64,000 bases of DNA. It comes from Gemmatimonadaceae bacterium. GTDB lineage: Bacteria; Gemmatimonadota; Gemmatimonadetes; Gemmatimonadales; Gemmatimonadaceae. The notes under the pieces were generated by a model. That model made no database searches and was not told the DNA's origin. It saw nothing but the letters and a program-made list of their open reading frames with translations. The position numbers and the translations under genes are program-made. Below, piece after piece: positions 4,447 through 24,275 of the stretch; the first letter of the stretch is position 1, and each line of letters starts with the position of its first letter. The stretch spans positions 1 through 64,000 of the forward strand of contig DASUHB010000005.1 in assembly GCA_036273715.1 (NCBI GenBank), read 5' to 3'.

Positions 4447-4551
4447 CGCAGCGAAAACGATATAGCCGAGAATGCCAGCATTGAGACTTCATTGAATACT
4501 CATAGCGATGAGGGCCAGGGACCGGTCCGCCCGGCGTCAACGGTTGATGGC

Positions 4552-7500: not shown

Positions 7501-9606
7501 CCCGCGAGGTTAGACGGGATTCTAATTGGCATCCTTCGCCACAGCGACAACGCCGCGCTGACCGCCGTGGTTTCAAGCGTGGCAATAGCGTACCCGCACG
7601 CCGCCGGCGAGACGTTGCTAGTTCTACTCAGCGTCCGCGACTACATCGATCTCGATCGCAATCGCATGGCGAGAGAACGTCACACGTCAGCCCTGTCGTA
7701 TTTGCCAACTCTGCAGACAGACCATCTAGCCTACGACATAGAGCGGAAGCAGGCGAACGACTTGCCCCACCGCCAGCACGACCTAGAAGTCGCTATAGTT
7801 AGCCTTCAGTTGGGATCTTTCGCTCCGCGTGTCCAAGCCCTGCTCGACGAGCATCTTGCGGCGTTGCCGCCGAAGGAAGAGCAGGACGAACACGATCGTG
7901 TGTGGCGCCTGGCACTCCATCGCATGGATTTGCGACAATACACACTTTTGGACACGCCTGTACTTCCTCAAGGCGATTTCAAACCTGTCGCTCAGCCACG
8001 ACGCTACGTTAGCCTCGATCCAAAGCCGCCCGAACGAGACCTCCAAGCAATAATCGATGAAAGGGCCGAGCAGTCGGCGAACATGAACGCGCGGCTTGGC
8101 GTGCTAATGTGGGGTATTAAAGCATTTGACCGCGAGGCAGGAGAATACGATCCAGCATCGTGGTCGTCGAAGCTTGCCGCAGCACAGACGATGGACCGCG
8201 AAGGCGGTGAGGAAGACGGTAGCCGTGACGCTCCGGGCTTTGTTGCAGCAGTCTGCATTCGAGATCGATGGGACGAGATGACGACTCCACAGCGAGACTG
8301 GTGCGTCGATACCGCGTGTGCGGAAATCATGTATGACGCCGACGGCACTGCTCGCATGACGCGCATCCAGAGCGACCTTTTCGCGGCCAACCGGGCCTGC
8401 GCTAACGTGCTGGCAGCGTTGCTTCACAAGGTGCTCGATCCAATACGCACTGAACAGGTAAGAACAGCATTTGTCGTTGCACTAACGCATCCCGTGGAGC
8501 AAGTGCAGCTGTCGGCGACACACAGCATCGATGACACCGTTTGGTCGTCCGACCGCGGCCTCGCACTGCGGTGTGTCAATGCGCTTGCGGCCGAAGCCAA
8601 CATCGTCGTCAAGGCTCAAGAGGCAGAACAAGAGCATCCGTATGACGAGCGACGCAATCGGGACGAAATCATGGCGGAAGCAACGGCGGAAATCCGCGCG
8701 CGGTTTTGGAAGGGCACTGGTATTGCTAATGATGCACATGTCACGCTCAACATCTACGACGGGTTCGGTGCGTATGCGCTGAATCGTATGCTGATGATCC
8801 TTGGGCGCGTGCCGCTAGATCCGCTCGCGATTGAAGCGTTTGCGCGCGCGAGCAATACGCTTGCAAGCTGGTGGACAGCCGACGATACTCGTCATAGCCA
8901 AGGCAACAGGAATTTCCGTATAGAGGGGAACGTGTCTCGACGCGTTCAGGAATTCTTGCTGCGCACATCACCGGAAGCAGCAAGGAAAGTACTCGCGCCT
9001 CTGCTTACGACCGTCGAGCGCCATTCGCACGAGCTGCAGTCCCTGCTGCAGGGATTGACCGCAATCCAAGACACCAACCCGAACACGGCACAGTATTGGT
9101 TCGTGTGGGAGACGATTGCGGACGCAGTCAAGCGCTCTAGTTGGGTTTCTCGTTTGCGGACGGATAGGAACCCACACGAGACCGAGTTGCTGTCGGCCGT
9201 TTTTCTAAACCTGGATTGGAAAGACAACGTCCGTCATTGGCGTTTTCTCGACGGCTACGCGCACCTTGTGCACGCGCTTTTCTCGTGCCTGTCGCCATCG
9301 TCCGCCGTTCTCGATGTCTATGCGCGATTTCTCTATCACATCGGAGACCGGTCGCTGCCCGACGCTTTAATTCACGTCGCCGATGCCCTACGGCTCGGAA
9401 GCACTGCAGAGATGCTCGCTAAGCCTAACACTGTCTTTCTTCTGGAGGTGTTGCTGCAACGCTACGTCTACGGGCGGCCGCTCGAACTCAAGCGCAACGA
9501 ACGCCTCCGTGACTCCGTTCTGTTTATCCTCGACTGTCTTGTCGAATCCGGATCGTCGGCCGCGTTTCGCATGCGTGACGATTTTGTCACACCGATGTCC
9601 GCTTGA
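4552..9606 (+). CDS. Very large STAND-type NTPase with N-terminal nuclease-like domain (Avs-like)
   Basis: About 1,684 residues from ATG 4552; a TTG at 4492 would add 20, and neither has a clear ribosome site. Residues about 10-85 (TTFEQHVGAYWLAQLL, AEVCFQT, WHTDDFLVV, VGQVKRA) match the Cap4-like nuclease pattern: D59/D60 and Q77-V-K79. A P-loop GPAGSGKS lies at 317-324, Walker B-like VVLVES at 380-385 and the sensor strand VLTCRDY at about 414-419, as in STAND ATPases. The remaining 1,100 residues are helical repeat-like with no known motif, the usual place for a sensor of phage proteins. The architecture resembles Avs antiphage receptors, but the C-terminal sensor belongs to no type I recognise. 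It overlaps the convergent DUF2357 gene by 20 bases. Confidence 0.75.
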   Translation: MNARVSSPASTGGAGTTFEQHVGAYWLAQLLVGAIPPILIDATVAEVCFQTARLGWHTDDFLVVCTTGGAVRNLVGQVKRALTVSASDESCSQVVVNFWNDFKGPRFSKECDRLTLVVLRGTNTLLEHFAGLLDCARAARDGAEFEQRLNTAGFISATAVRYSGELQQIVGAIERKSFSAADIWPFLRVLHVLSLDLHSSTRQTEAHIKSMLALAANDGDPLASAAVSWNELVGEASVAMATGSSLRRDDLPAAIRERHSVINAGERRVLRALSDHTAPVLRAIRSTLGPDLHLARAALVQKVLDALENAQVVLVAGPAGSGKSAVGKDAVGVLALNHFVFGFRVEEFAQPHVDATLAAAQVPANWEKLRAILGAQTRKVVLVESVERLLEKTTRDAFTDLLTLAADDDALRIVLTCRDYSVEQVRASFLQPHRIKHMAIQVPPLQDDELSEVQEAYPVLATPLTHPALRDILRNPFVLDKALGIPWSSEQSLPQNEREFRALFWREIVRGGQRVAPALGRQREGALEIIAVRRARALSAHIPVSDLDAVVVESLRGDSLIVSPDDNPLVVATAHDVLEDWAILQWLDEKHLSQAAFKTLSDAIGMHPAVRRSYRKWVAELVERDSAAADRLFRAGLSESEISAQFRDDTLVSLLKAPSSPDFLARHEGQLLANDRVLLKRVVQLLRVACMKSREWLTGLIEGGSIVNVPDGSAWPAVLRIVHRNLAAFTDNERALLLGLEEDAVRGVSWWAPDLEGAEDVAGIAHWLLDALRDYGGQEPRERVLSVIAKIPYADGARFEAELRGHPEARGRVDMVARDFQDLIYGGTDGMPAARDLPDVIVSIGREYLLASKEDIDDVRRYAGMSPDVDLYFGIKEERHDSFPPSGIRGPWLPLLRFHSEKALQFYIQVFSHSADWYAHPRLHDRLEMAWEVELAFADGATQMQWTNARLWGLYRGMTVGPYVLQSMLMALETWLLEIGKQQPARLDGILIGILRHSDNAALTAVVSSVAIAYPHAAGETLLVLLSVRDYIDLDRNRMARERHTSALSYLPTLQTDHLAYDIERKQANDLPHRQHDLEVAIVSLQLGSFAPRVQALLDEHLAALPPKEEQDEHDRVWRLALHRMDLRQYTLLDTPVLPQGDFKPVAQPRRYVSLDPKPPERDLQAIIDERAEQSANMNARLGVLMWGIKAFDREAGEYDPASWSSKLAAAQTMDREGGEEDGSRDAPGFVAAVCIRDRWDEMTTPQRDWCVDTACAEIMYDADGTARMTRIQSDLFAANRACANVLAALLHKVLDPIRTEQVRTAFVVALTHPVEQVQLSATHSIDDTVWSSDRGLALRCVNALAAEANIVVKAQEAEQEHPYDERRNRDEIMAEATAEIRARFWKGTGIANDAHVTLNIYDGFGAYALNRMLMILGRVPLDPLAIEAFARASNTLASWWTADDTRHSQGNRNFRIEGNVSRRVQEFLLRTSPEAARKVLAPLLTTVERHSHELQSLLQGLTAIQDTNPNTAQYWFVWETIADAVKRSSWVSRLRTDRNPHETELLSAVFLNLDWKDNVRHWRFLDGYAHLVHALFSCLSPSSAVLDVYARFLYHIGDRSLPDALIHVADALRLGSTAEMLAKPNTVFLLEVLLQRYVYGRPLELKRNERLRDSVLFILDCLVESGSSAAFRMRDDFVTPMSA

Positions 9607-11923
9607 CTGCAAGGGACGTAGTAGCTAGGTAGTCGACAAGTTCCTGCCAAGTGACGACACCCGGAGCCCCGAAAAACGCATCCGTGCCCAGTATTCGTTC
9701 CGCATCACTCGAAGAAAAGCGCCGAAAGAGAGGATAGTCGAGACGCGCTGGCTTCTCTTCAAGCTCCAAGCAGTAGTAGAGCGATCCGCCAGTGCTTGGG
9801 TAGGACAACGCCTGCAATTGTTCTGCAGAAAATAATCGCGGGATGCCCTTTATCTGACAGAGCGTCGCTTCACCGACCGATTGTCCGTAGAGTATCAGCA
9901 ACTCGGCGGAAAGCTCTCGCGACGTGAGACCAACCGCACCGCGTCGCGAATCCGCGCGCAGGTTGTACAGACGGTGTTCCTCAATCCACCGCAAGTGAGC
10001 TCGGCTCTTCACGTACCCCAGCAACACCAGGGCGTCAGCGGGCGGTTGCTTAAGAAAGGTGGCAGCTGGAACCGATGCCGCTGCCAAAGAATCTATTCCG
10101 AAGGACTTCTCATTCCAAAAACGCGAACGTTCGTATTGCGTGGTTTGAGAAGCCACGTGAGCTATAGTGTTGTTCAGAAATGCTTCGATGGCGCTGATTC
10201 CCGCGGCAGGTCCTTCTTCAGTTGGCTCCAGCCCGAAGGCGCCGAGCCCTGGCAACAATTCGTGGTACTCCAAGCACTTCTCGCTGTCGCTCCCCGGATA
10301 GAGAACGTACGCGCCCGCTGATCGACGGATCGCATCGCGGTATGCATGCATCTTCATCAGATCGTCGCGCTTCGCGCCCACCTCAAGTGCGGCACGCGAT
10401 GCGTCACGAAGCTCATCGTCGGCGTTCGTTGCTTCAGGCCCAAGTATTTCGAACAGGCTTTCAACGCGATACTTCGCGTCGAAATGCAACCAAACCTCGG
10501 GCATATCGACGTAGACACCACTGGTCGGCGTTAGGCGCACAGAACAGTCTGGGCGCATCGGCCGCGCCCATGAGGTACCAGGATGGCGACCAGTAGAAAA
10601 TGTGCGATTGAACCACAGTTCGACCTCAACAAGTCGGCCGAGGCGATCAACCTTGCCCTTTAACACGCACTGCATTCCTCGCATGAGGCCGATGCTCAAG
10701 CCCGATTCGTCTTTGCGGAGCAAGTCAGTGAAGTCAAAGGACTGGCCGCAGATACGTGCTAGCGCAGTCGCAAGCTGAAGGAAGGTCCAATATTCAAAAA
10801 GAGTGGCGACGTTTCTCTGACCCGCGCCGAAAACCGCTTCCCCGCCTGGCCAGCTCAGTTTTGCCGCGAACTCCGAAGACAAGTACGCACAATAAATGTC
10901 GCGATATCCTTGTCGCTGCTGAAGAATTGTGCTAGCGGCGGGAAATTGATCTAACTCTCCGATCTCGCGAAACACGTCGTGCGCCAAAAGCTCGTCGAGC
11001 TCGGATAGCATTGCGGTTACTTGAACGTCGCCCCGCGAGACCGGATTGCTCGGCGGCAAACGGTGCAATGCGCTTTCGACTCGGACAACCTGCGCACGCC
11101 AGTTCTCAAGCGCAAACTTGACGAAGCGATTCGGCTGATTGTCGAGCGATTCATGCGCGACTGAAACTGGGATCCGCGTGGGCGAAGACCGCGTTGCATC
11201 CCTTACTACGCCAAGCCCATTTGCATCTGTGCCTCTCCAACCTGCAGCGACTAACCGACGAACGAGCTTAGAGCTTCCTTTGATTCCTCTCGCAGGATTA
11301 CGCCATTCCTCTTGCTCATCCCATTGCGTATACGGGCGAGTTAGCACGAGACGAACGGCAGCACGAAATGCTTCGTCAGCGAGTAGGCTTTTGAGAAAGC
11401 AGAACTTCTGGTAGAGCGTGCGCGCATCCGCTTCCTCCTCCACCTGGAAGTGATGCTCTGACGGCGCGAATCGCTCCATAACAACTTCGGACATCTGCGC
11501 TGCGATATCGCGCATCATCCATTGGTATTGCCGCAGGTAGTCAAGCTTCCTCGAGCGAACTTCGAGGCTAAGGTGCCCAGCGACTCGCGCCTCGCGAAAA
11601 ACAGTTATTGGAAGTAGTCCGGTGGCCAAACCGCTCCGTATTCGGCCGGTTCTTCCGGATCGGTCATCTGGCAGGAAGATCTCGGGGCGATCGGTAGTGT
11701 AGTGTCCAGAATCGCTGGGTGTGATCGAGAACCGGTATTCTGTGCTCTCGAGGAGCTGAATCGGCGCCAGGGTAGTATCTCTATCAACCTGCCGCCGCAA
11801 ATCGAGCAGCGCGAACGCCTCGTTCGGTGTGTTGGGTAGAAGTTCAATCGTCAGGCTAATGCCGGTTTCCCTCCCGTCTTCGACAAGGGACAGAGTTGCC
11901 TCAGCGACTGCCCCGTCGATCAT
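9587..11923 (-). CDS. DUF2357/PD-(D/E)XK nuclease, McrC-like partner of the downstream-strand McrB
   Basis: 778 residues. The N-terminal half (residues about 60-330) matches the DUF2357 layout, including EARVAGHLSLEVRSRKLDY. The nuclease core reads RPDCSVRL (P458-D459) followed by WLHFDAKYRVE (D482-A-K484), then MKMHAYRDAIR and AYVLYPG, as in McrC/DUF524-type nucleases. Its start overlaps the stop of the McrB-like gene by four bases, so the two are co-translated. The predicted role is the cleavage subunit recruited by the GTPase. The C-terminal 150 residues look like a separate small domain of unknown role. Confidence 0.8.
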   Translation of the reverse strand: MIDGAVAEATLSLVEDGRETGISLTIELLPNTPNEAFALLDLRRQVDRDTTLAPIQLLESTEYRFSITPSDSGHYTTDRPEIFLPDDRSGRTGRIRSGLATGLLPITVFREARVAGHLSLEVRSRKLDYLRQYQWMMRDIAAQMSEVVMERFAPSEHHFQVEEEADARTLYQKFCFLKSLLADEAFRAAVRLVLTRPYTQWDEQEEWRNPARGIKGSSKLVRRLVAAGWRGTDANGLGVVRDATRSSPTRIPVSVAHESLDNQPNRFVKFALENWRAQVVRVESALHRLPPSNPVSRGDVQVTAMLSELDELLAHDVFREIGELDQFPAASTILQQRQGYRDIYCAYLSSEFAAKLSWPGGEAVFGAGQRNVATLFEYWTFLQLATALARICGQSFDFTDLLRKDESGLSIGLMRGMQCVLKGKVDRLGRLVEVELWFNRTFSTGRHPGTSWARPMRPDCSVRLTPTSGVYVDMPEVWLHFDAKYRVESLFEILGPEATNADDELRDASRAALEVGAKRDDLMKMHAYRDAIRRSAGAYVLYPGSDSEKCLEYHELLPGLGAFGLEPTEEGPAAGISAIEAFLNNTIAHVASQTTQYERSRFWNEKSFGIDSLAAASVPAATFLKQPPADALVLLGYVKSRAHLRWIEEHRLYNLRADSRRGAVGLTSRELSAELLILYGQSVGEATLCQIKGIPRLFSAEQLQALSYPSTGGSLYYCLELEEKPARLDYPLFRRFSSSDAERILGTDAFFGAPGVVTWQELVDYLATTSLAVKRTSV

Positions 11924-14166
11924 TCCGAAAAACTCGCGAATTGATTGGCTCGCAGGTTTCGGATCATACGCCGGACCTTGTCGAACGACACGGGCAAAGC
12001 GACGGATAGAGGAAGCGAGCCAAGCGGGTCAAAAGTATCACTCGCAGACTGCGTGTTAGGCAAGAAGTCTTCTGGTGCCACACAATACCGAGCTAGGGCC
12101 GTGAGAGTAGGTTCCAGCCGTCTCCTAGAACCATGGAGTTTAGGCATAATCTTTTGCATCACCACCAAGTCAAGCGCAGTTCTCCAATTCGGTTCACCGG
12201 CGCTCGCCAACATGGCTGCGAAGCGCACTATTTCCTGAACAACGCGATGGCCGAACTCGAAGCCACCTTCGACAAGCAGTTCGTGCAGGGAGCGTAAACA
12301 GCGGACGAACTCTTCGCGATTGGGCGATTGGTGCTCTGACTGCCAGTCGCTGTCACGAGCTACTTGTAGAAAGCCTCTGACGAGTGCGTCGTCACCGGCT
12401 TCTCCTGCCAGTGGTCTATGCGCATCGAAACGAAGCGCTGACGTCGGCACTCTGAATTCGATTGTATTCGCACGGTCGAGGACCTTTGGCGAGAACATGT
12501 ACGTCGTCTCATCGACGTTCACAGTGCCGACAACGAAAAGGTTGTCCGGAAACCGAATCCTGTTGGGCTCATCCTCAATCAGGCGCCACAGGCCGCTTTC
12601 CAGCTCAAGATTTGGTAAGCACGGTTCGCCTGATTCCATTCCAGATAGCACATCCGCGAAGTATCGCTCGACGTGTGCAAGGTTCATCTCATCCAGAATC
12701 AAAACGTACGGGTTCGTCGGATCGCCAGCAGCCGTCAGCATGAACTCGAGCGCTTCCGGAACGCACCATGCGCGCCGTCCCTCCACAACTGGGAGAAGAG
12801 CGTCTTCATAGCCGAGAAGGGCCTCTGGGCCTGTCCAATCTGGGCGCACTGGGACTACGCGATACCGATCGTCACCGCACCATTGCCCAAAGTGAAGTGC
12901 GATCTGCGTCTTTCCGGACCCCGAAAGGCCCGTCAGAATGAGGAGCCGCTTGGCGGCCAAGCTCACGACAAATGCGCGCGTGAATTGAACATGCTGCGGG
13001 CTGAAATCGACGTGGCTCCTGGTTAGGCACGCAGCGAACGCGCTGACGACAGCGGAAAGATCCGCGACAGGTGAAGAGCTGGCGCCTGTTCGCTCTTGGT
13101 CGGCAATCAGGTCATCGATCGCTTCTGCCTGTAATTGTGTGAGTAGGAAGTTCGTGCCCTGCGGTGCGCGAAGGATCGTCAGCTCAAGAAGCGACGGTAC
13201 ATTCGCCAGTTCTCGTTTCAGCAATGGATGTGAGAGTCGGCTCACGACCCGGAGCGGCGCCAGTAGCTGTGGCTCTGTTAGGCCAAGCCCTTCTTTCACG
13301 AATCTCGCGGTGGGCCCATCAAGTGTTCCAATCGCAGGCCTGCCCTCGACCGCCGCGACGCCGACAATTCCGGCTTCCGGCCCAGACTGCCAAAGGTAAA
13401 CCTTGTCGCCTTCGGCGATTTCATCAGCGTGTTGTCGAACCGTGAAGCCGAAAGAGGAAAGTTCAGCCAGGGCACTCTGCACATCCCACTTGTCCGGATT
13501 GCTTTGAAAGATCCAACTACGGATTGTTGGTGAAGGAGTACGGCCGCGCTCGGGTCGTTCGAGATAGTCATCATAGGCGACGAGGACCGCCTCAAGGTCG
13601 GCGACGAGCGTGTCATCACTCGGCACATGCGCGGCTTCGTAGTACTTGTATGCGATCGTTGATACTTCGTAGTCCGCGCCGACACCGCTCGCAGCGGCCA
13701 GATCGATTCTGTCGTCAAGGCGAAAGCCCGAGTTGCCGAGCGATTCGCACCTGCTTCTTATGTCAGCGATGGTCGCCTTCAGCAACTTTCGCCCTTCTGT
13801 TTTTCCAAGGCGCTTAAACGGACGCGTTACCCCCTGGTTGAAGGTGAGGTAGAATCCGGACATGTCCTGGCGAAACAGGTACACCGGGTAAACTCCATGC
13901 TGCGTTGTATCAGTCTCTCTCCGATCCAATAGGGCTATCCAGGGAACGTTAGTCCAATTCCCTTGGCCGACGGACCATTTGACGGTCAGTGTTGGGCGAC
14001 GTTTAATCGAACCTGTCGCCTTCAAGTCATCCTGAATACGGCGGAATAGCTCTGTGATCGGATGGCTGCCCGAAAACGCATCTGCGGTCCGAGCACTACG
14101 ATACCCTGCCAGAATCGCTTCGAAAGAGGTTTGCAGTCCCGTGGTGACTCCGAAGTCTGAAGTCAT
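11920..14166 (-). CDS. McrB-like AAA+ GTPase with MrcB_N (DUF3578) and EVE domains
   Basis: 748 residues from ATG 14166; the frame stays open to 14250 but the extension looks unreal. Residues 1-190 are DUF3578-like (FRQDMSGFYLTFNQGVTRPF). Residues 216-300 form an EVE/PUA-like domain (WIFQSNPDKWD, EGDKVYLWQSGPEAGIVGVA), a fold known to read modified bases. The AAA+ core has P-loop GLSGSGKT (413-420), Walker B VLILDEMNLAHVERYFADVL from 488 and the McrB-type GTVNVDETTYMFSPKVLDR segment from about 547. McrB proteins couple nucleotide hydrolysis to translocation and to cleavage by McrC. With EVE as reader, a type IV restriction system against modified phage DNA is the natural call. Confidence 0.9.
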   Translation of the reverse strand: MTSDFGVTTGLQTSFEAILAGYRSARTADAFSGSHPITELFRRIQDDLKATGSIKRRPTLTVKWSVGQGNWTNVPWIALLDRRETDTTQHGVYPVYLFRQDMSGFYLTFNQGVTRPFKRLGKTEGRKLLKATIADIRSRCESLGNSGFRLDDRIDLAAASGVGADYEVSTIAYKYYEAAHVPSDDTLVADLEAVLVAYDDYLERPERGRTPSPTIRSWIFQSNPDKWDVQSALAELSSFGFTVRQHADEIAEGDKVYLWQSGPEAGIVGVAAVEGRPAIGTLDGPTARFVKEGLGLTEPQLLAPLRVVSRLSHPLLKRELANVPSLLELTILRAPQGTNFLLTQLQAEAIDDLIADQERTGASSSPVADLSAVVSAFAACLTRSHVDFSPQHVQFTRAFVVSLAAKRLLILTGLSGSGKTQIALHFGQWCGDDRYRVVPVRPDWTGPEALLGYEDALLPVVEGRRAWCVPEALEFMLTAAGDPTNPYVLILDEMNLAHVERYFADVLSGMESGEPCLPNLELESGLWRLIEDEPNRIRFPDNLFVVGTVNVDETTYMFSPKVLDRANTIEFRVPTSALRFDAHRPLAGEAGDDALVRGFLQVARDSDWQSEHQSPNREEFVRCLRSLHELLVEGGFEFGHRVVQEIVRFAAMLASAGEPNWRTALDLVVMQKIMPKLHGSRRRLEPTLTALARYCVAPEDFLPNTQSASDTFDPLGSLPLSVALPVSFDKVRRMIRNLRANQFASFSE

Positions 14167-14421
14167 ATGATCCGTTAGGCCAGTACAAGGGAGAACGAAG
14201 AGTAAGGTCTCCAAACGACATGCTCTGAGGCGGCACGAGAGAGCAGCCAACTATGAGTTCGCCGTTGTTGGAACATAAAGCGTCGCCTCAAACTCAGATC
14301 GCATCGCCAATATGTCGTTAGGACTTCCGTGCGAAAAGGGCCGCGCCGAGTTTCTTCGCGAACTTGCCAGGAATCCGCACGGCGAGTTGTACGTACAGGC
14401 GGTGTGTCGGAGGGTAATCTC

Positions 14422-14646
14422 TTAGCTTCTCTCGATTTCGGCGGCAAGGGTCTTGAGGTACGCGCTCTTCTCCCTCGCCAGCTTCGCCAATACAGCCTGC
14501 CAGCCGAGCGGCGGCGATCGATAACTGGGATTGGTTGGATCGAGGCGCGCCTGACGCACCAGCTGAACGGATACACGAGCCGCGCGCGCAATCTCTGCGT
14601 GGTTTGCGCAACCGGCTAGGCGGTCAGTCGCTTGCTTGAACGTCAT
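14422..14646 (-). CDS. Small helix-turn-helix DNA-binding protein
   Basis: 74 residues. The segment HAEIARAARVSVQLVRQARLD is a clear helix-turn-helix. The C-terminal half (WQAVLAKLAREKSAYLKTLAAEIE) is a helical, probably dimerising arm. A TACAAT -10 box on the minus strand at 14655-14660 would put the transcript start almost at the ATG, so the mRNA may be leaderless. It is transcribed away from the small ORF at 14771 across a shared control region that contains a perfect inverted repeat. The likely role is autorepressor of the divergent pair. Confidence 0.7.
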   Translation of the reverse strand: MTFKQATDRLAGCANHAEIARAARVSVQLVRQARLDPTNPSYRSPPLGWQAVLAKLAREKSAYLKTLAAEIERS

Positions 14647-14654
14647 CGCAATGT

Positions 14655-14703
14655 ATTGTATATGCCTGCATTGACATCATCGGATGTCTATTATAATATA
14701 TAC
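14655..14703 (+). promoter_or_regulatory. Divergent control region: consensus promoter overlapping an inverted-repeat operator
   Basis: TTGACA (14671-14676) and TATAAT (14692-14697) are 15 bp apart, an almost perfect sigma70 promoter that stands out in this GC-rich DNA. The perfect inverted repeat GACATC-ATCG-GATGTC (14673-14688) overlaps the -35 box and spacer, so a bound repressor would block polymerase. The obvious candidate repressor is the adjacent helix-turn-helix protein. The minus-strand TACAAT box at 14655-14660 serves the HTH gene itself. Confidence 0.7.
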
Positions 14704-14770
14704 ACGGCCTGCCGAGACGAATGGTGCTCAGTTTAACAATCAGCGCGTAACGATTTTACAAGGAGGCTCC

Positions 14771-14971
14771 GTGGCTTTCACATACACTCAGGTACGCATT
14801 CGGCGCAGCTCGCCCGACGATTTCGCGCCCTTCGAAGTACGCCGATACGGTCGCCACTGGGAGGTGCGAGATCCGGCCGGAGAGGTCGTCTGCCTAACGG
14901 TTTATCGCCGCGGCGCGGCGGAAGTAATAAGGCGCCTAAAACTTAGCACTGGTGATCAGCGCCCGCAGTAG
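14771..14971 (+). CDS. Small conserved-looking protein driven by a consensus promoter
   Basis: 66 residues from GTG 14771, which is preceded by AGGAGG at 14761-14766. An in-frame ATG at 14684 lies between the -35 and -10 boxes, upstream of any transcript start, so it cannot be used. The protein has a beta-rich FEVRRYGRHWEVRDPAGEVVCLTVYR core and a basic helical tail (GAAEVIRRLKL). No family is known to me. Promoter strength and repressor context suggest a product normally kept off, such as a toxin, an anti-defence regulator or a cassette activator; this is speculation. Confidence 0.65.
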   Translation: MAFTYTQVRIRRSSPDDFAPFEVRRYGRHWEVRDPAGEVVCLTVYRRGAAEVIRRLKLSTGDQRPQ

Positions 14972-15147
14972 GAATCAAGTAGGAATCAGCGCCGCTCGAA
15001 GAGCGATCGTTGATTAATGTCACCACGCCGCCCTCCGGCACGCGAACTCTAGCCGGTTCGATCGCTCGGCCTGTCCCAGTGCTCGACGGCCCTAAACGTC
15101 GGGCCTAACGTTGTTGAGACTGAGGAGGCGTCCTCAACATCCAATCT
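14972..15147. other. Intergenic, short direct repeat
   Basis: Just after the small ORF the nonamer TAGGAATCA occurs twice with an AG spacer (about 14969-14988). The rest of the gap to the GNAT-ASCH stop shows no gene or clear terminator. This is also where base composition drops into the lower-GC cassette to the right. Confidence 0.4.
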
Positions 15148-16203
15148 CTAGTTCGATTCGAGCGAGTGCCTAATAGTGCTGCGAGGAAAGGCAGAAAAAT
15201 TGGAGTGGAGGAGTGCCGCAACTGACAATGCTCGTCCCCAAACATCGGTCAGTGAATGTGCGCTATAGGACTGTGGCGGTCTTAAGTCTTGGCCTAACAG
15301 ATGAGAGAGTTGCGACAGTGAAACTGGAGCTTCATACGGTACAGGGTCCCGTAATCTCAGGGCGAAGACATGGGATCGGTTACCAGCATAACGGTCAAAG
15401 TCTTGCCGGGAGCAACACAACTCGCTCTCAAACGCGCGCCAAATCTTGTCTGGTGATCCTTGCACTACGTCAGCAATCTTCACGGTTCCAAGTAAGCATC
15501 CGGAGCCACCAGCTGCGTAGACGCTCGCGCTTCGCCCAATCCATCGGCTTGTGAATCGTCGGCGCACTTCAACTGTCTTGTGCCCTTTCATTATCGACTC
15601 GGCATGATTTCGATGCACGGAGAGTACTATGCCGTCGTTGATCTGAAAGCCAGCAATAGCGGCGCCTGTTAAGAGCATTGGGAGCCGATCGACTATTCGA
15701 CTCCACATTTTGGGAAAGCTCACGGAACAACGAAGTTCTTGGTCGAACAGTCGATACTGAATAGATGATATCTCTACCGACTCAAACCCAAATGAGCGGA
15801 AGAAACCCTTTTCTCGCTCCCAAAGACTCTCTGGAAGTGTGAAATGAACTTCCTTTGAAAGATGTCGAACCTCCGCGGCCATCAGGCAGAACATTAGCTG
15901 GCCAAGCTTGTTTCCTTGGAATCCTTCACTAATGCTCAAATGGCAGAACTTTGATTTCTCTCCTTGTTTCAGCACAGCAGCAAGTACAGGAGCCTCTCCC
16001 TGAAATCCGAGGTATCCAATGCGCCGGCCTGTTTTAAGATCAGGCACTACCTTGTCATTGAACCAGCGTCTTATGGATGGATAGTATGACTCATGATTAT
16101 CGAGCCAATTTGAGAGCGTCATCAACGCATCGCTACCGCGATGAGCATCGCTTGAACCAATGCGCTTGATGTGCACGGACGATGTCGGAAATAGATCCAG
16201 CAT
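15148..16203 (-). CDS. GNAT acetyltransferase - ASCH domain fusion
   Basis: 351 residues. The N-terminal half is a GNAT fold: IGYLGFQGEAPVLAAVLKQ, then CHLSISEGFQGNKLGQLMF (acetyl-CoA loop) and GFFRSFGFE. The C-terminal half from about residue 190 is an ASCH/PUA-like domain (GIVLSVHRNHAESIMKGHKTVEVRRRF, broken here only by reading, then LLGTVKIADVV). Some ASCH proteins bind RNA or hydrolyse N4-acetylcytidine, so one chain may carry both acetyl-transfer and acetyl-base recognition. The gene follows the dCTP-deaminase-family gene on the same strand with a short gap. Coding GC is visibly lower than in the genes right of 18.6 kb, suggesting recent transfer. The substrate is unknown. Confidence 0.75.
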   Translation of the reverse strand: MLDLFPTSSVHIKRIGSSDAHRGSDALMTLSNWLDNHESYYPSIRRWFNDKVVPDLKTGRRIGYLGFQGEAPVLAAVLKQGEKSKFCHLSISEGFQGNKLGQLMFCLMAAEVRHLSKEVHFTLPESLWEREKGFFRSFGFESVEISSIQYRLFDQELRCSVSFPKMWSRIVDRLPMLLTGAAIAGFQINDGIVLSVHRNHAESIMKGHKTVEVRRRFTSRWIGRSASVYAAGGSGCLLGTVKIADVVQGSPDKIWRAFESELCCSRQDFDRYAGNRSHVFALRLRDPVPYEAPVSLSQLSHLLGQDLRPPQSYSAHSLTDVWGRALSVAALLHSNFSAFPRSTIRHSLESN

Positions 16204-16230
16204 ATTCTCTTCCCGAATGCGTTCGCCTAA

Positions 16231-17415
16231 TTACTTGCCCTGTTGGACAAGTTTTGGTCTGGACTTCCATTTCGCAAAGAACTTGGACAACTGCAGATCT
16301 TGATCGTTGTATGGATCCTTCTTCTTTGATACGGACCGCGCGGGATTTTTCCTCTCTTTCTTCGCTTCCTCAGACATTCGAAAGAACTGAAGGCGCGCTA
16401 AGATTTCCCCGTCTCTCAAATTCACATCTACATCATGACCACGCACTTCAAACACCAGCGGAGTTCCAAGCTGACCGTCCTCTCTGTCTTGCCCAAAGAA
16501 TGGATGAGCGAATCCAGCGTAATGAATTCTCATTTCGCCGATCTCTTCATCGATCGCCCTCGCGTATACAGCAATTCCAGCCGGGAGACGAAGCCTCTCT
16601 TTTGATCGAAGTATATAAAAACTGCCCTTCTGAATTTTCAGTCTTCGTTGTTGGTTAGCGCCGACAAGTTCCCACCACTTACCCGGGTTGAGCTCACCGT
16701 TCCCTCCCGACCACAATCGGATTGGCGCACCAAACCTATTCGGAGACGTCGCTCGAAAGCCGCAGCCGGGAACGCCGACTATGTCGACTGGGGCCAAGTT
16801 AACACTCAGATGGTGGTCCTTGGCTAACTGTGTCAAACACGTTCGAGAAATCTCGTGACCTTTTAACTCACAATCGGCAGGATCTCCATAAAAAAGCCTC
16901 AACTGATTTAATGCTATGCCGGCCTTAACTACGACCGGGAAGGTAATGGGCGTTACCTCCACAAACATGCTCGTAGACCCTTCCCCAAGTTCCTCTGGAT
17001 CAAAGCCTTCGTATCGCCTAGTTCCATCAACTATGAGGCGAACCAAAACATCAAGCCTTCCGATTGAGCTCTTAGCCGTCGCCCGACCCCAAATAGACTT
17101 TGTGCATTTCGCTTCGATGGATTCTTTGAGTCGAAACAGATAGGTTCTCCGCGGACGCAATAAGAAATGGCCGTTTTGGTCAGCGACTAGTGGGTTCAGT
17201 AGTCGATCGCTAGTAATCTGCCCGAAATAGTCACTTCCGAAGGGCTTGACGGAGCCGCCCTTCAGCTCAAAGGCATCGCTCGACAAGTGTAAATCCAGTG
17301 CCGAATGATCAAATCCGCCGCTACTAGCATGTTTGATGAATCCGGCTTTATGGACTGCCTTAAGTTGCCGTTTTGAGAGAACGCCAGGTACCCAGGAATC
17401 CCAAACCTCAGGCAC
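16231..17415 (-). CDS. dCTP deaminase / dUTPase superfamily protein (long DCD form)
   Basis: 394 residues. GTG 17415 is preceded by AGAGGAGGG. The signatures of the long, two-domain DCD proteins are present: FDHSALDLHLS near residue 36, FLLRPRRTYLFRLKE, the active-site segment KSSIGRLDVLVRLIVDG, and FVEVTPITFPVVVKAGIALNQLRL with the expected glutamate. A second DCD-like half follows (LRLPAGIAVYARAIDEE, VFEVRGHDVDVNLRDGEI). The family removes the amino group of dCTP, or binds or hydrolyses pyrimidine deoxynucleotides. A basic, lysine-rich linker comes before the C-terminus. Its placement beside GNAT-ASCH and a P-loop kinase in a defence island suggests nucleotide manipulation during infection. 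Confidence 0.8.
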   Translation of the reverse strand: MPEVWDSWVPGVLSKRQLKAVHKAGFIKHASSGGFDHSALDLHLSSDAFELKGGSVKPFGSDYFGQITSDRLLNPLVADQNGHFLLRPRRTYLFRLKESIEAKCTKSIWGRATAKSSIGRLDVLVRLIVDGTRRYEGFDPEELGEGSTSMFVEVTPITFPVVVKAGIALNQLRLFYGDPADCELKGHEISRTCLTQLAKDHHLSVNLAPVDIVGVPGCGFRATSPNRFGAPIRLWSGGNGELNPGKWWELVGANQQRRLKIQKGSFYILRSKERLRLPAGIAVYARAIDEEIGEMRIHYAGFAHPFFGQDREDGQLGTPLVFEVRGHDVDVNLRDGEILARLQFFRMSEEAKKERKNPARSVSKKKDPYNDQDLQLSKFFAKWKSRPKLVQQGK

Positions 17416-17592
17416 TCAACCCTCCTCTGTTTCGGTCGCTAAAGGACCTAGAGAAATTCGGGCAGGTGCGAGGTTTACGCCTTGCCCGAACATAAGCCGA
17501 AGTGCTGCTGTTTTCAACTCCCATGAGCGTGCTCATGTTTTGTAGTTCGAATCGAACGTGATTCCGAGAACAGAAATTCATCGAATTCACTG

Positions 17593-18129
17593 ATGAGCTT
17601 GTTCTTTTTTGGCGGGATTCATGGCGCGGGAAAATCCACCCTTTGCGAAGCGCTAAAGGGTCCGCTAGACGCCGTTCATCTGAGGGCAAGCGACCTGATA
17701 GGCTATGTCGCGGAGCCAGGTGACCTCATGCGTAAAGCCGTCGTGGATGTCGGCGCGAACCAAGAACTAGCGCTGTCTGCGCTGACGCCGTACTTGACTT
17801 CCTCGCTGACGATTTTGCTTGACGGCCACTATTGTCTAGTTCGCAGAGATGCGAGCATCGTCAATGTACCACTGGACGTGTTCACAAGTATACGGCCATT
17901 GGGACTAGTGTTGGTGGAGGCGCCAACCTTCCTAGTTAAGCAACGTCTCGAGCGGCGAGAAGGTAGCTCTGAATACCAAATTGAGTTTCTCACACGTCTT
18001 ACCCAGGTGGAGCGACAGCAGGCTGAATTCGTAAGCTCGTCTCTAAATGTGCCGCTCAAGATTTGGCGACATGGAATGCGAAAAAGCAGCGTCCTGACGT
18101 TCGCTCGACGTCTATTGGTAAATGCGTGA
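17593..18129 (+). CDS. Small P-loop kinase-like ATPase
   Basis: 178 residues opening with FFFGGIHGAGKSTLCEAL, a Walker A typical of nucleoside/nucleotide and zeta-toxin-like kinases. TILLDGHYCLVRR is the central strand with an acidic residue, and VKQRLERREG matches the arginine-rich lid. It is transcribed divergently from the DCD gene across a 177-bp gap. It could phosphorylate a nucleoside or a small molecule, or inactivate a metabolite as zeta toxins do. The sequence fixes only the fold. Confidence 0.7.
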   Translation: MSLFFFGGIHGAGKSTLCEALKGPLDAVHLRASDLIGYVAEPGDLMRKAVVDVGANQELALSALTPYLTSSLTILLDGHYCLVRRDASIVNVPLDVFTSIRPLGLVLVEAPTFLVKQRLERREGSSEYQIEFLTRLTQVERQQAEFVSSSLNVPLKIWRHGMRKSSVLTFARRLLVNA

Positions 18130-18375
18130 CGCTCGCTCGACGTCCACTAGCCTTTGGCGCGAGTTCAAACTGGCTCCTTGAGCGCAGCGTCACGTTGATT
18201 CTTGCGCTTCGCTAATACTGCCAAATTTCCGCTGCCTGTTAGCAAGCAACGGAGACTCTCGATCGCACTCCCGCACTGAGCCAACGAGCGCTAGCTGGCA
18301 CACCCGCGCCTAGCAAGTGAGGCCATGCGTTTGGTCCGGCGTCGTTCTTAGGCGCGCCGTACGACAAGGCTCGAA
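18130..18375. other. Intergenic stretch at the island boundary
   Basis: There is no convincing gene. A duplicated phrase (GCTCGCTCGACGTC near 18131, and GTTCGCTCGACGTC near 18101) repeats the end of the kinase gene, and GCCTGTTAGCAAGCAACG occurs near 18234. No tRNA and no integrase-type att repeat was seen. Confidence 0.4.
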
Positions 18376-18582
18376 TTACGAGAGTGCCGCCTGCATACCG
18401 ATTAAAACAGCTCCGCATGTCGGGCATTCAACCTTCTCGTACAACCTAATCGCCTCCAGAATCGCGCCGCATCCTTTGCAACGAGGATTGCGAACTCGAT
18501 ACTGAGCAACGGCTATTCCAACGATAAGCGCGAGTAAAGGCCCGAGCGGAAACTCGCCACCTGCTCCACGTTTGCGCGACAT
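18376..18582 (-). CDS. Small membrane-anchored zinc-ribbon protein
   Basis: 68 residues. The ATG is preceded by GGAGG eight bases upstream, which supports a real gene although it is short. One N-terminal hydrophobic helix (PLGPLLALIVGIAVAQY) is followed by a four-cysteine ribbon, CKGCG...CPTCG, about 20 residues apart. It is probably an inner-membrane protein with a cytosolic zinc knuckle. Function is unknown. Confidence 0.65.
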   Translation of the reverse strand: MSRKRGAGGEFPLGPLLALIVGIAVAQYRVRNPRCKGCGAILEAIRLYEKVECPTCGAVLIGMQAALS

Positions 18583-18662
18583 TAGTCGCCTCCATTTCTT
18601 GTTGGCACGACAAAGCTACGCGAACATGCCCCTTCATTTTGGACTTATTCCAGAATACACAG

Positions 18663-21600
18663 TTACCCGCACTCACTAAACCCGCACACATGACACTTCA
18701 CACACCCCTCCGCATACTCCAACTGCGACCCGCAGTCCGGACACGTTCCCATAAACCCGCCATTGTCCGTCACCGCGTCGAAGCCCAGCTGCCCCTGCGC
18801 CCCGCCTAACGTCGCATCCCCGCTCGCCGCCGGCGCCACTCGTACCGACGAGCCTGTGATCTGCTCCCTCGCCGGCACCCCGCCCTGCTTCGCCCCGCCC
18901 TCGCCCAACAGCTCCTGCTGAACCCCCTGCTTCTCCCGCCACCACTGCTCGATCGCAATACCAATCGCGTCGGGAACAGAGAGCACCTTGTTAGGCCCGA
19001 GCCCGATCGGCCGGTCCGATGCGATGCCCCGGAGCTGCTTGTGCACTTCCATGAGCGGAATCCCGCTCCGTAAGGCCAAACTCAGCAACCGCCCCATCGC
19101 CTCTACGTCCGCCATCGCCGCGCCGCCGGCCTTGCCCAACGTGATGAACACCTCGAACGGCTGCCCGCGATCGTCCTCCGTGATCGTCACGTACATCGTG
19201 CCCAACGGAGTCTCCATCCGCCGCGTCGTCCCCCTCAACGTATCGGGCCGAGCGCGCTTGGCCCGCCGTTGGGCATTCTCGGCTTCGCTCTCGTAGAGCA
19301 TCTTCTTGAGCCGCCCGATCTCCGCCTCCGACTCGGCGAGCCGACCGGCGAGCTCGGCCACCTCGCGCTTGGTGTCCGGTTGGGCGGTGACGCCCGGCAC
19401 CGACGCGACTGCCCCGCTCTCCCGCGCGGCCTTGGCCCCATCGGTGGCGCCGGTGCTCAGCACCTGGTTGTCGCGCGACCCGTCGCGATACACGGTCACA
19501 CCCTTGCACTTGAGCTCGTACGCGAGCTCGTAAATCGTCCTCACGTCGTCCTGCGTAGCGGTGTGCGCGAAATTTGTTGTCTTCGAGATTGCCGAGTCGC
19601 AGTGCTCCTGGAAGGCGGCCTGCATGCGGATGTGCATGTCGGCCGCGATCTGGTTGGCGGTCACGAACACGCGCTGCCACTTCTCCGGCACCTCGGGGAA
19701 CTTGATGTGGCCTTCCTTGGCGATCCGCTCCATGAGCGCGTCGCTGTACCAGCCCTCGCGCTTGGCGATCGCGACGAAGTCGTCGTTCACGTCGGGCATC
19801 ATGACGCCGGCCTGATTGCGCATGAACGCCACGGCGAAGAGCGGCTCGAGCCCGCTCGAGCAGCCGGCGATGATCGAGATGGTGCCGGTGGGCGCGATGG
19901 TGGTGACGTTGCAATTGCGCAAAAGCTGCATGGGCCTAATGCGCTTGCCGCTCGCGTCGCGCGCGCACGTCTCCTCGGGACCCCAGATGCTCTTGGCCCA
20001 CTCGGGGAACGCGCCGCGCTCGTTGGCCAGCCGCTCGCTCTCGCGCTTGGCCTCCACGTCCAGGAACCGCATCACCTTGCGGCCCATCTCCACGCCGTCG
20101 GGCGAGTCGTACGGAATGCCTAACCTAACGAGCATGTCGGCGAAGCCCATGATGCCAAGGCCGATCCGGCGGATGCGCTTGGACAGGGCGTCGATCTCGG
20201 GCAGCGGATACTTGTTGACGTCGATGATGTTGTCGAGGAAGTGCGTGGCGAGCTGGATGTCGCGGCGGAACGCGTCCCAATCGACGCCGCTCCCCTTCAC
20301 ATAGTAGCCGACGTTGATGCTGCCGAGGTTGCACACGTCGTACGCGAGCAGGGGCTGCTCGCCGCAGTTCGCCGTGACGAGGCCGTTCACCACAATCGAA
20401 TGGGTCTGGTGCTCGGTGGTGCAGTACACGTCGGCGGTGCCGGCAGGCTCGATGGACACAATGCGCGTGACGAACCGCTCCCGATTGGACCGGCGCTCCT
20501 TGCCCGCGAGCCATCGCTCGGCTTTCTGCTGCTTGGCCACGGACAGGAAGCCGATGGTGCGGACGAACCGGTCGCGGTTCTCCTTGTCGAGCACGAGGTC
20601 GTACTGCGGCGCGCAGGCGTAGCGGGTCTGGCCGCCTTTGCCGTTGGGCATGAGCTTGTCCTGGGCTTCGCGGCGCAGGTACAGCTTGGAGACGATCCCG
20701 AAGTTGAGCAGCAGGCGCTGCACGTCTTCCAAGAGCGGCTTGTTGCTGGCGGCGAGGCGAACGGAGCACGTTTTCCGGGCCACCGAGATGTTCACGGTGC
20801 CGTCGGCGGTGAACAGGCCCTGCAGGAAACCGATCACGGCTTCGCGCGGAGCGCGCCAGATTGTTTCGGGCACGCGCTTCACTTGGCCCGGCACGGCCAG
20901 GCCGAGCGAGCTGCGGGTGTACGGCAGCTCGTCGCAGGGCCAGCCGTCGGTCATCGCGAAGCCGATCATCTGGCCGAGCTCGCGGGACCAGGTGGACGGC
21001 AGGTGGGCTTCGCCGCGTTCGACGCGGGCGCGGAACTTGTCCGTGGGCTCGAACGCGGGCAGCGCGTAGTTGGTGCTCCAGGCGCCCTCGCCGGACTGCA
21101 AGAGGATGTCGTCGCCCGGCTTCAGATCCTTGAGCTCCGCCAGTCCGTTAGGCGTGAAGAACTTGTGGTTGTCGGTCGCGGTTACGGTGTAGCCGTGCGC
21201 GGTGACGAGCGCGAATACGGGCGCGTTCTGGCGCGTGCGGAAAACGGGCACCGCGTGGCGGAGCGTGGTGCCGCGGCGGGTTTGCACGGCGACGCCGCCC
21301 TCGAGCGCCGAGCGGATGGCCGGCACACGGTCGTCGGTGACCACGCGGATCTCGGTGAGCTCGCGCTCGAGCTCCTCCATGGTGAGGAGGCCGCGGTCGG
21401 TGGCGAGGCGGGTCGATCCGACCACGCACGGATTGGTCGCCTCGTACTGGCCTAACGACGGGACGGGGTTGTAGCGGTTGGCCTCGTCGATGAAGAACAC
21501 GCCGGGCTCGCCGGTGCGCCAGGCGCCCTCGATCATCTTGTTCCACACCATGCGCGCGTCGAGCCGCTCCACGGACTTGCCGGTGCCGGGGTCGATGAGA

Positions 21601-23669
21601 TCGTACTTGGACCCGGTCTGCACGGCGCGCATGAACTGCGTGGTGACGGCCACCGAAATGTTGAAGTTGACCACCTGCGTGAGGTCTTCCTTGCAGGTGA
21701 TGAACTCCATGATGTCGGGATGGTCGACGCGCAGAATGCCCATGTTGGCGCCGCGGCGGGTGCCGCCCTGCTTCACGGCGTCGGTGCTGGCGTCGTAGAG
21801 CTTCATGAAGCTCACGGGGCCGGACGCGACGCCGGTGGTGGAGCGCACCATGGAGCCCTTGGGACGGAGGCGCGAGAAGCCGAATCCGGTGTTGTGGATC
21901 ATCACCATGCCGTCGCGGCCGGCGGCATAGGTGTTCCACTCGTCGACGCTCAGGTCATAGTACGGCTTGGGCGTGTCGGCCCGGGTCACCTCGGTCACTT
22001 CCTGTCCGCCGCGCGCGGCGCGCTTGAGCATCGCGGCGAGGGGCGCGTCGTGCGACTGGAGGACCTGCGCGATGTGCGCGAGATCCCGTCGATTCACGCG
22101 GCCGCCTACGTTGCAGCTCCACCGATTGAATTGGTCGGCACAGGGTCCGGCGCCCTTGTGACCGCGCTCATTCACGAGTCCATACGAGCGCAATGCGTCG
22201 CGCCATGAATCGATGTCGAGCGCGAGCGAGGTCTGCTTAGTGGCGTCAGAGTGCAGCCGCTCTTTCCGCTGCACGTTCGCCAAGTATGGCGCGAGATCCG
22301 CGGCCAGCTCGTCCACCTGCGGCAACGGGCACAGGAGCACGGTGTAGGTGGGCAGCTTGCCACGGCCGTGCGGCTCCTTCCGCCTAACCGTGGGCTGGTA
22401 GCCGAGGAGGCTCATCAGAGCCGCGAGGTCCTGGGCCATTTCTTCGCTGGCCGTGGTGTACGACGGACTGCCGTCGGGGTCCACACAGCCGTCGCTGTCC
22501 AACAAACCGGCGACGAACGCGCGCACCACCGGCAGCGGCGCCTTTCCAATGTGCTCGGGCACGCGGATGATCGCGTCCTTGGGTCCGCGACGCGTGAGCG
22601 CACAGGCCTGCTGCATGGCGTGCACGAAGTCTTGCGTCAGCGTCGCCAGCACGAGGCCGTTTCCGCGCGGGTCGCGCTGGATGGAGATCCGGATGCCGTG
22701 CTTCGCCACAATAGACTGCACGCGCTCGAGCACGTCGGTGGTGCCGGAGAACCAGCGCAGGCGGTGCTGCCTGAGCGCGGGCACGTAGCCGAACGACCCA
22801 TCGCCTAACGTGAAGCCGGTGAGCCACGCGATGTCCGGATCGATCGTGAGGCCGCCGACGGTGCGCTCCTCCTGCCACGGCCAGAACGTCTCGGGCCGCT
22901 CGGGACCCAGGATCACGTCGCCGGCCTCGAGCGCGTCGGCGCGGACTTCCACGAGCTGCGTGCCGCGCAGCACCATGAACGGGTGCCAGTCGCTGGTCTG
23001 CACCTCGGCGCCCTCGCGCGTCCTAACGACAATCTGACTCTCGGCGGGCACGTCGAACTTCCACACGTGCGTCACGGGACGAAGGCCGGTCTTGCCCGTG
23101 CCCGGATCCATGGACAGCGTCCGGATTCCGAGGTCGCGCACGTCATACGCAACGCCACTGCCCTGCCGCTCGCCGGCGCGCCCGTCCACGGTGGCGCGAT
23201 TGAACAGCACCTCGATCGGCTCGACGCCGCAGAACGTGGTCCACACGCGCGCGTCGCCGGCGATGCATCCGCCGCCCGACTGATGAATGAGGGCCATGGA
23301 CCGCAGCGTGTCGTAGATCCCGTCGTGTCCGTTAGACAGCGCGTCCTCGATGGGCAGCACGAAGCACGCCGACAGTTGGCCTAACGGACGGCCGGCGTTC
23401 ATGAGCGTCGGCGAGTTAGGCACGAACCGACGCTCGGTCATGAGCCGGTAGAACTCCTCGGCCACCGTGTCCACCGCGCCGTCGCTGGCGCCGTACCGCC
23501 GATCGGCCTCCGCCACCACCGTGGCCACGCGCCAGAACAAATCCTCGGGTCGCTCCGTGGGCTTCCCCGTCTCGTCCTTCACGAGGTAGCGCTTCTCGAG
23601 CACGATCCGGGCGTTCTTGCTGAGCGACACCGGGGTCGCTGGCGGCGAGGCCTTGGATGGCAGGGCCAT
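18663..23669 (-). CDS. nrdJ: Adenosylcobalamin-dependent ribonucleotide reductase with two inteins
   Basis: 1,668 codons; ATG 23669 has AGGAGA nine bases upstream. Removing two inteins leaves an 855-residue class II reductase that makes dNTPs from NTPs/NDPs without needing oxygen. Extein landmarks are [20 protein letters not shown] joined to [17 protein letters not shown] joined to [18 protein letters not shown], and [22 protein letters not shown]. The C-terminal four-cysteine ribbon (CPDCG...[10 protein letters not shown]) recycles the active site in this family. Both inteins interrupt the catalytic centre, so the enzyme is inactive until both splice. No cobalamin riboswitch or NrdR box could be seen upstream. 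It marks the start of core chromosome. Confidence 0.95.
20367..21428 (-). other. Intein 2 of NrdJ (354 residues, LAGLIDADG type)
   Basis: It spans residues 748-1101, from C748 ([13 protein letters not shown]) to N1101 ([10 protein letters not shown]), with C1102 as +1. That cysteine belongs to the NPCGEQ active-site motif. Block B is [15 protein letters not shown]. The first endonuclease helix is degenerate ([13 protein letters not shown]) and the second is canonical ([12 protein letters not shown]). The penultimate residue is Ala instead of His, which is tolerated in several known inteins. Confidence 0.9.
21891..23267 (-). other. Intein 1 of NrdJ (459 residues, with homing endonuclease)
   Basis: It spans residues 135-593 of the precursor, from C135 ([10 protein letters not shown]) to N593 (MVMIHN), with T594 as the +1 residue. 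Splicing blocks A and B are visible (B near [11 protein letters not shown]). Two LAGLIDADG-type helices, [12 protein letters not shown] (about 283) and [12 protein letters not shown] (about 386), mark an intact-looking endonuclease. The +1 residue is Thr, a standard nucleophile. It carries at least three copies of the GCCTAAC word, so it is not a newcomer by that measure. Confidence 0.9.
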
Positions 23670-24275
23670 GGGGATGCGTCTCCTAACTGAGGGCCAAACC
23701 GAAGTTGTGGTGGACTTGACCTACGGGTTCCGCGAGGTGGGATGAGCCAGACGCGGGAGGTGACGATATTCTGACATGTGATTCCGCGCAAGTCTCTTCA
23801 CAACTTCAACCGTAGCAACGAGTTCCAACAATGCACATCACAATTCCGGGTTTGGCCGCGTTTTCCACCGACTATCCACGCGGAGGCGCCTCGGAATGTG
23901 CAAAGGTCCGGAATCGTGATGCAAAGCCCACGCCTCGTGGGCGTCGAAGCGTGGGATAACATGAAATGTAGCCGCTTCTTAGCTCGAAGGAAGCCGGACT
24001 GCCGGAGCCGCTCGGCGCCAGGCGAGCGAAACGAGCTCGACATTGCGGGACGTCAGCGCCGAGGAGTGGGTTTGTTCGGATACACGACACTAACAAGCGG
24101 ACAACCCGGACAACGCCGGATTTGACGGACGGCTCGGCTGCTCGAAGCGAGTGCGAGACGAAGTGGCGGGCCGTGTCGGCAGAGAGAGAGTCGTTGGCTT
24201 GACAGTATCCCGGATCCCGGTAGCGTGTGGCGTGGCTGTCTGACAATCGCTCCCTTCCCGAACGCCGAGGATCTC
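23670..24275. other. 600-bp intergenic region between nrdJ and lipoprotein gene
   Basis: It holds the divergent promoters of nrdJ and the lipoprotein gene. No convincing ORF, B12 box or palindromic NrdR site was seen. Near 24092-24122 is a single unit of the GGCGGACAA...CGGACAACGCCGGA repeat that becomes a tandem array after 24778. An AG-rich run lies at 24181-24190, just before the lipoprotein promoter. Confidence 0.5.
24199..24226 (+). promoter_or_regulatory. Probable sigma70 promoter for the lipoprotein gene
   Basis: TTGACA (24199-24204) and TAGCGT (24221-24226) are 16 bp apart, about 50 bases before the ATG at 24276. The -35 box is perfect and the -10 partial. Confidence 0.45.

Follow-up and report, generated by a model that had tools for sequence, protein, structure and literature searches.

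A GNAT-ASCH fusion gene, a divergent dCTP-deaminase-family gene and an AAA_17 kinase gene in a defence island of a Gemmatimonadaceae bacterium

Gene arrangement and genomic context

The window, i.e., the whole stretch of 64,000 nt that was analysed, contains three real and intact open reading frames and one shared intergenic region between positions 15148 and 18129:

15148..16203, minus strand, GNAT-ASCH fusion protein, 351 aa (Pfam ASCH, PADLOC PDC-M11B, phrog_3136)
16231..17415, minus strand, double-domain metal-independent dCTP-deaminase-family protein (DCD), 394 aa, GTG start (Pfam DCD_N/DCD_C/DCD)
17416..17592, no strand, intergenic region common to the divergent DCD and kinase genes, 177 nt
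17593..18129, plus strand, small P-loop nucleotide-kinase-like protein, 178 aa (Pfam AAA_17)

An earlier note on this DNA had placed the three genes correctly; only two of them run in one direction. The DCD and GNAT-ASCH genes are co-directional, with the DCD gene upstream as the first gene of an apparent operon and a gap of 27 nt between them, and the kinase gene is divergent from this operon across the 177-nt gap. Both operon genes are preceded by good ribosome-binding sites, in case of the GTG start of the DCD gene by the Shine-Dalgarno sequence GAGGAGGG. A 16-nt palindrome, CATGAGCGTGCTCATG, is situated between the divergent genes at 17522-17537 and is a possible candidate operator. Promoter and terminator scans gave matches no better than those in shuffled sequences, including one promoter-like match at chance level in 17416..17592, and a search of positions 9000-24000 for known RNA antitoxin families in Rfam returned 0 matches.

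The lower GC content previously attributed to the three adjacent genes is borne out by values of 0.50, 0.50, and 0.53 for GNAT-ASCH, DCD, and kinase, respectively (GC3 0.49, 0.51, and 0.56, similar for the two operon genes), whereas the ribonucleotide reductase gene beside them has 0.67 (GC3 0.90). The three-gene cluster is imported and lies in a low-GC island. To its left, this is a defence island with a McrBC-like pair, a STAND NTPase, and a DUF488 protein. The McrBC-like pair (9587-14250) consists of a McrB-like protein with MrcB_N, EVE, and AAA domains, which is matched by PADLOC PDC-M26A, and a McrC-like protein with DUF2357/PDDEXK_7 (PD-(D/E)XK). The STAND NTPase identified by Pfam (4492-9606, 1704 aa) has an N-terminal region (TGGAGTTFEQHVGAYWLA...) that recalls DUF4297/Cap4-type nucleases. 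At the island edge, a near-perfect 18-nt direct repeat, TGACGYTCGCTCGACGTC, at 18095-18144 spans the stop codon of the kinase gene. The neighbouring ribonucleotide reductase gene (18663-23669) contains two inteins with LAGLIDADG domains.

Relation of the kinase and the GNAT-ASCH protein to PDC-M11 systems

The kinase is matched by Pfam AAA_17 (E 3.6e-12) and by a system-specific family profile (E 6e-53, with the window sequence contained in the profile). It forms a long branch; all invariant residues of the family are present (G8, H10, G13, K14, K48, N56, D77-G78-H79, R122, and E140), and the closest solved structures are archaeal-type adenylate kinases. This kinase family is a diagnostic partner of GNAT/ASCH systems and occurs almost exclusively beside genes for a GNAT-EVE and an ASCH protein, namely in 36 out of 36 viral contigs, in 10 out of 10 plasmid matches, and in 78 of the best 80 loci from many phyla in a collection of 84,980 species genomes, where about eight of the kinase loci, either cyanobacterial or with fusions, have a weak EVE half and were assigned by the GNAT half. 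The two exceptions among the best 80 loci are given by one short contig and one locus whose GNAT-EVE frame is interrupted by a stop codon.

The association of (PIN)-GNAT-EVE with ASCH, in some cases HTH, and AAA_17 was predicted by Bell et al. 2020 to represent toxin-antitoxin or defence systems (PMC7641849). It equals the PADLOC candidate PDC-M11 (PDC-M11A/B). The pair is labelled GevT toxin and GevA antitoxin in the record of Escherichia phage PhiR47_2 (PV340567), which is the sole source of these names. No experimental paper on GNAT-EVE/ASCH/kinase systems was found in the literature searched, and an anti-phage or toxin-antitoxin role is a prediction for the whole family. Since GNAT, ASCH, and the AAA_17 kinase, the latter being diagnostic, constitute the core of PDC-M11 systems, the opinion of the earlier note that the combination is not a described system has to be abandoned.

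The proposed fusion of a GNAT to an ASCH domain was confirmed. The ASCH domain exceeds the Pfam cut-off at residues 194-246 and extends over about residues 192-314. The GNAT half, about residues 1-170, remains below the Pfam cut-off (16.5 bits versus 23.6); a profile that was built from the standalone GNATs of related loci, without the window sequence, gives it 45.5 bits, and its AlphaFold2 model adopts a GNAT fold (mean pLDDT 75.5). In a fold search of this model against the PDB, acetyltransferases were retrieved at E about 4e-8, all of them generic and without a hint of the substrate. The fusion protein is matched by PADLOC PDC-M11B (67 bits, E 5e-19) and phrog_3136 (E 3e-24). With PDC-M11A, the GNAT-EVE model, it reaches 13.3 bits only. 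Identity with the GNAT of GNAT-EVE proteins was rejected, as GNAT-EVE profiles score the window GNAT at -2.6 and 0.4 bits versus 45.5 bits with the standalone type; by these scores it is assigned to the accessory, standalone, EVE-less type (phrog_13728). Standalone GNAT genes adjoin the ASCH, GNAT-EVE, and kinase genes as an optional extra gene in the sister loci L025, L027, L065, L090, L126, L137, L139, and L156. Members of the standalone GNAT family also occur in jumbo phages (201phi2-1, Kc263, FLC8, FLC9, and Phosso), where they possibly serve counter-defence.

Motif A of the window GNAT reads QGNKLG, compared to the consensus (Q/R)xxGx(G/A) or QxxGxG, with Lys replacing the first Gly, and the conserved Arg of the motif A segment is lost as well; acetyl transfer may therefore be weak or impaired. 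In the ASCH domain, which forms a long branch, the invariant residues K209, E212, R214, Y229, W255, and Y272 are all present, and residue 233 is Gly instead of the Pro of all other aligned relatives. The closest solved ASCH structure is that of ZmASCH, the HTH-ASCH ribonuclease of Zymomonas (PDB 5guq). Of its three ribonuclease-cleft residues, the window ASCH retains Tyr47 and Ser128 (as Y229 and S312) and has lost Lys53 (Gly235). Unlike ZmASCH, the window ASCH lacks an HTH domain and is fused to the GNAT. Scans of viral and genome collections with the single GNAT-ASCH protein yielded no relatives, which by the exact short peptide matching used excludes close relatives alone.

In summary of the likeness to PDC-M11, the window has the ASCH subunit (PDC-M11B), the diagnostic AAA_17 kinase, and a standalone-type GNAT, and the locus is situated in a defence island. 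Unlike in PDC-M11, no GNAT-EVE (PDC-M11A) was detected, the GNAT is fused directly to the ASCH domain, the operon carries an additional dCTP-deaminase-family gene, and the kinase gene is divergent, a layout shared with L065. Because the defining GNAT-EVE protein was looked for and not found, the locus was not filed as a PDC-M11 member; the GNAT-EVE profile search of the source genome, run without a positive control, gave no match.

Among the sister loci, ASCH and kinase are fused in one protein in L113, L114, L118, L135, and L141, which supports a direct functional link between the two. Several GNAT-EVE/ASCH/kinase loci (L024, L065, L071, L072, L082, L093, L095, L111, L115, L137, and L139) also encode a conserved protein of about 310-420 aa that has hydrophobic helices at its C-terminus. 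It adjoins a standalone GNAT in some cases and is a candidate accessory protein or membrane effector. In the cyanobacterial GNAT-EVE proteins of L079, L083, L092, and L084, a T5orf172 (GIY-YIG-type) domain replaces PIN, and an HNH-like gene occurs in L084, L072, and L095.

The dCTP-deaminase-family protein and its association with the module

The DCD protein is matched by Pfam DCD_N (E 2e-22) and DCD_C (E 2e-29), whereas zinc-deaminase models of PADLOC and Pfam matched none of the three proteins. The earlier note was right in setting it apart from the zinc-type enzymes, its family being the metal-independent one, and the KSSIGRLD active-site segment is located at residues 115-122. Like the double-domain 2'-deoxycytidine 5'-triphosphate deaminases (PRK07559, PDB 2r9q), it possesses two DCD halves, aligns over the full length (E 5e-26 with 2r9q), and carries KSSxGRLD and E153. 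The predicted catalytic residues S116, R120, and E153 are invariant in the alignment with three other double DCDs, and correspond to Ser111, Arg115, and Glu138 of E. coli Dcd. From its sequence, the protein is probably an active deaminase. Unlike the PRK07559 proteins, it is strongly diverged, with 30-32% identity to the other three double DCDs versus 50-62% among those three; it scores 168.7 bits with NCBIfam PRK07559, short of the equivalog cut-off of 283, is encoded in a defence island, and coexists with a separate canonical dcd on contig 15 of the same genome (124.8 bits). Due to this canonical dcd, we regard the window DCD as accessory. A role as housekeeping enzyme was rejected, given the canonical dcd and an additional dUTPase-family gene on contig 33. 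Single-sequence AlphaFold modelling of the DCD reached a pLDDT of 29.

AvcD/DcdV systems (dCTPdeaminase in PADLOC and DefenseFinder) use the zinc cytidine-deaminase fold. The window locus resembles them in the proposed conversion of dCTP to dU with arrest of replication, and in the nearby P-loop kinase, but its DCD belongs to the metal-independent dUTPase-like family and has no PADLOC deaminase match. Zinc-type phage deaminases and the metal-independent deaminases of the E. coli type belong to two separate families (PMC12697855).

DCD was also found on plasmids and was not found in phage records. Scans with the window DCD alone yielded no relatives in viral and genome collections, with exact short peptide matching again excluding close relatives alone. 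In case of the other genomes in which the earlier note had envisaged a co-occurrence of the three domain types, kinase, GNAT, and ASCH are found together everywhere, but no DCD accompanies them in the sister loci, about 130 in number (0 matches with the DCD profile; best other match E 1.6), or, the source genome apart, in 395 genomes of the phylum. Due to the absence from the sister loci, the full trio is a singleton. Within the phylum, a double DCD occurs in 5 out of 395 genomes and the kinase family in 2 out of 395, and both occur together, side by side, only in the source genome (1 out of 395). Where the surroundings of the other double DCDs of the phylum were read, the neighbouring genes are unrelated and include neither a GNAT nor an ASCH or kinase gene. 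On this genome-wide count, an adjacency of DCD and kinase by independent coincidence is unlikely; however, as the genes of an island are not independent, the link is at most suggestive. What ties the DCD to GNAT-ASCH and kinase is adjacency and operon structure in the one copy found.

Origin and possible function of the locus

The locus represents a novel relative of a known kind of predicted system that is widespread in bacteria and prophages, and very probably it derives from GNAT/ASCH/kinase systems as a divergent, EVE-less form. The extra enzyme, predicted to destroy a DNA building block, appears to replace the core protein that such systems usually have. Our preferred reading, to which we assign a probability of roughly 0.5, is that of a defence module under the control of ASCH, into which a dCTP deaminase was recruited as effector; we see about even chances that the DCD takes part in the work of the module. 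In such a module, the ASCH half would sense or bind nucleic acid and keep the module silent, as proposed for the annotated antitoxin GevA, and a perturbation by a phage would release the effectors. The DCD would then turn dCTP into dUTP, by which DNA replication would be both starved and poisoned with uracil, the target acetylated by the GNAT would be an RNA or a tRNA, and the kinase, which resembles adenylate kinases, would supply or gate a nucleotide signal, with an abortive stop of phage replication as the net outcome. Nucleotide depletion by the DCD is a possible function suggested by this single operon.

The main rival is a DCD that is a passenger, i.e., a horizontally acquired double DCD of the alphaproteobacterial type that entered the defence island, acts in dUTP/dTTP metabolism, and is unlinked to GNAT-ASCH and kinase. 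We hold this for quite possible, though not for the likeliest case. No second genome has a DCD beside these partners, the canonical double DCDs of the phylum sit among unrelated genes, DCD is known on plasmids as well, and islands gather unrelated genes; yet the 27-nt operonic spacing to GNAT-ASCH, the divergent kinase gene directly upstream, and the matching GC3 are at odds with a mere passenger, as are the strong divergence (30-32% versus 50-62% identity) and a genome already provided with a canonical dcd. It is also conceivable, but rather unlikely, that the functional unit comprises GNAT-ASCH and kinase only and is toxin-antitoxin-like, with the GNAT acetylating aminoacyl-tRNA or RNA, the ASCH restraining or targeting it, and the DCD as a minor modulator. 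GNAT toxins acetylate aminoacyl-tRNAs and the same has been proposed for GNAT-EVE (PMC7641849), the pair of phage PhiR47_2 is named as toxin and antitoxin, and ASCH-type proteins bind nucleic acid (PMC5615036). The window GNAT, however, differs from that of GNAT-EVE and has a degenerate acetyl-CoA motif, and a toxin and an antitoxin fused in one protein would be unusual.

A GNAT-EVE system decayed to a remnant, which lost EVE, whose pieces became fused and which is now functionless, agrees with the lack of a detectable GNAT-EVE in the genome, the degenerate GNAT motif, and the long branches of kinase and ASCH. We consider it improbable, because all three frames are open over their full length, both operon genes have good ribosome-binding sites, and kinase, ASCH, and DCD retain all invariant catalytic or core residues except for P233G of the ASCH. 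By far the least probable case is an ASCH acting as N4-acetylcytidine hydrolase that undoes cytidine acetylation by the GNAT. The ASCH-fold protein YqfB is indeed an ac4C amidohydrolase (PMC6972931), and the earlier note had hinted at N4-acetylcytidine. The YqfB triad Lys21-Thr24-Glu74 does not recur in the window ASCH, where the position of the nucleophile Thr24 (KxxT) is taken by Glu212, which is invariant in every aligned ASCH relative; due to this substitution the hint is weakened and the hydrolase reading is unsupported and was rejected.

Returning to the ASCH-controlled module with a recruited deaminase, it is tempting to speculate, though we regard it as doubtful, that by effector exchange within GNAT/ASCH/kinase systems an ASCH-fused regulator came to control a toxic effector that is a dCTP deaminase of the metal-independent kind with the dUTPase fold. 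If true, a second, unrelated deaminase fold would be used for nucleotide depletion, and dCTP depletion would have evolved twice for defence. Should the deaminase be the effector, sensing and control must fall to ASCH and kinase, the two parts that were retained. A variant without GNAT-EVE but with an enzyme of known chemistry would represent a testable handle on systems for which no published mechanism was found.
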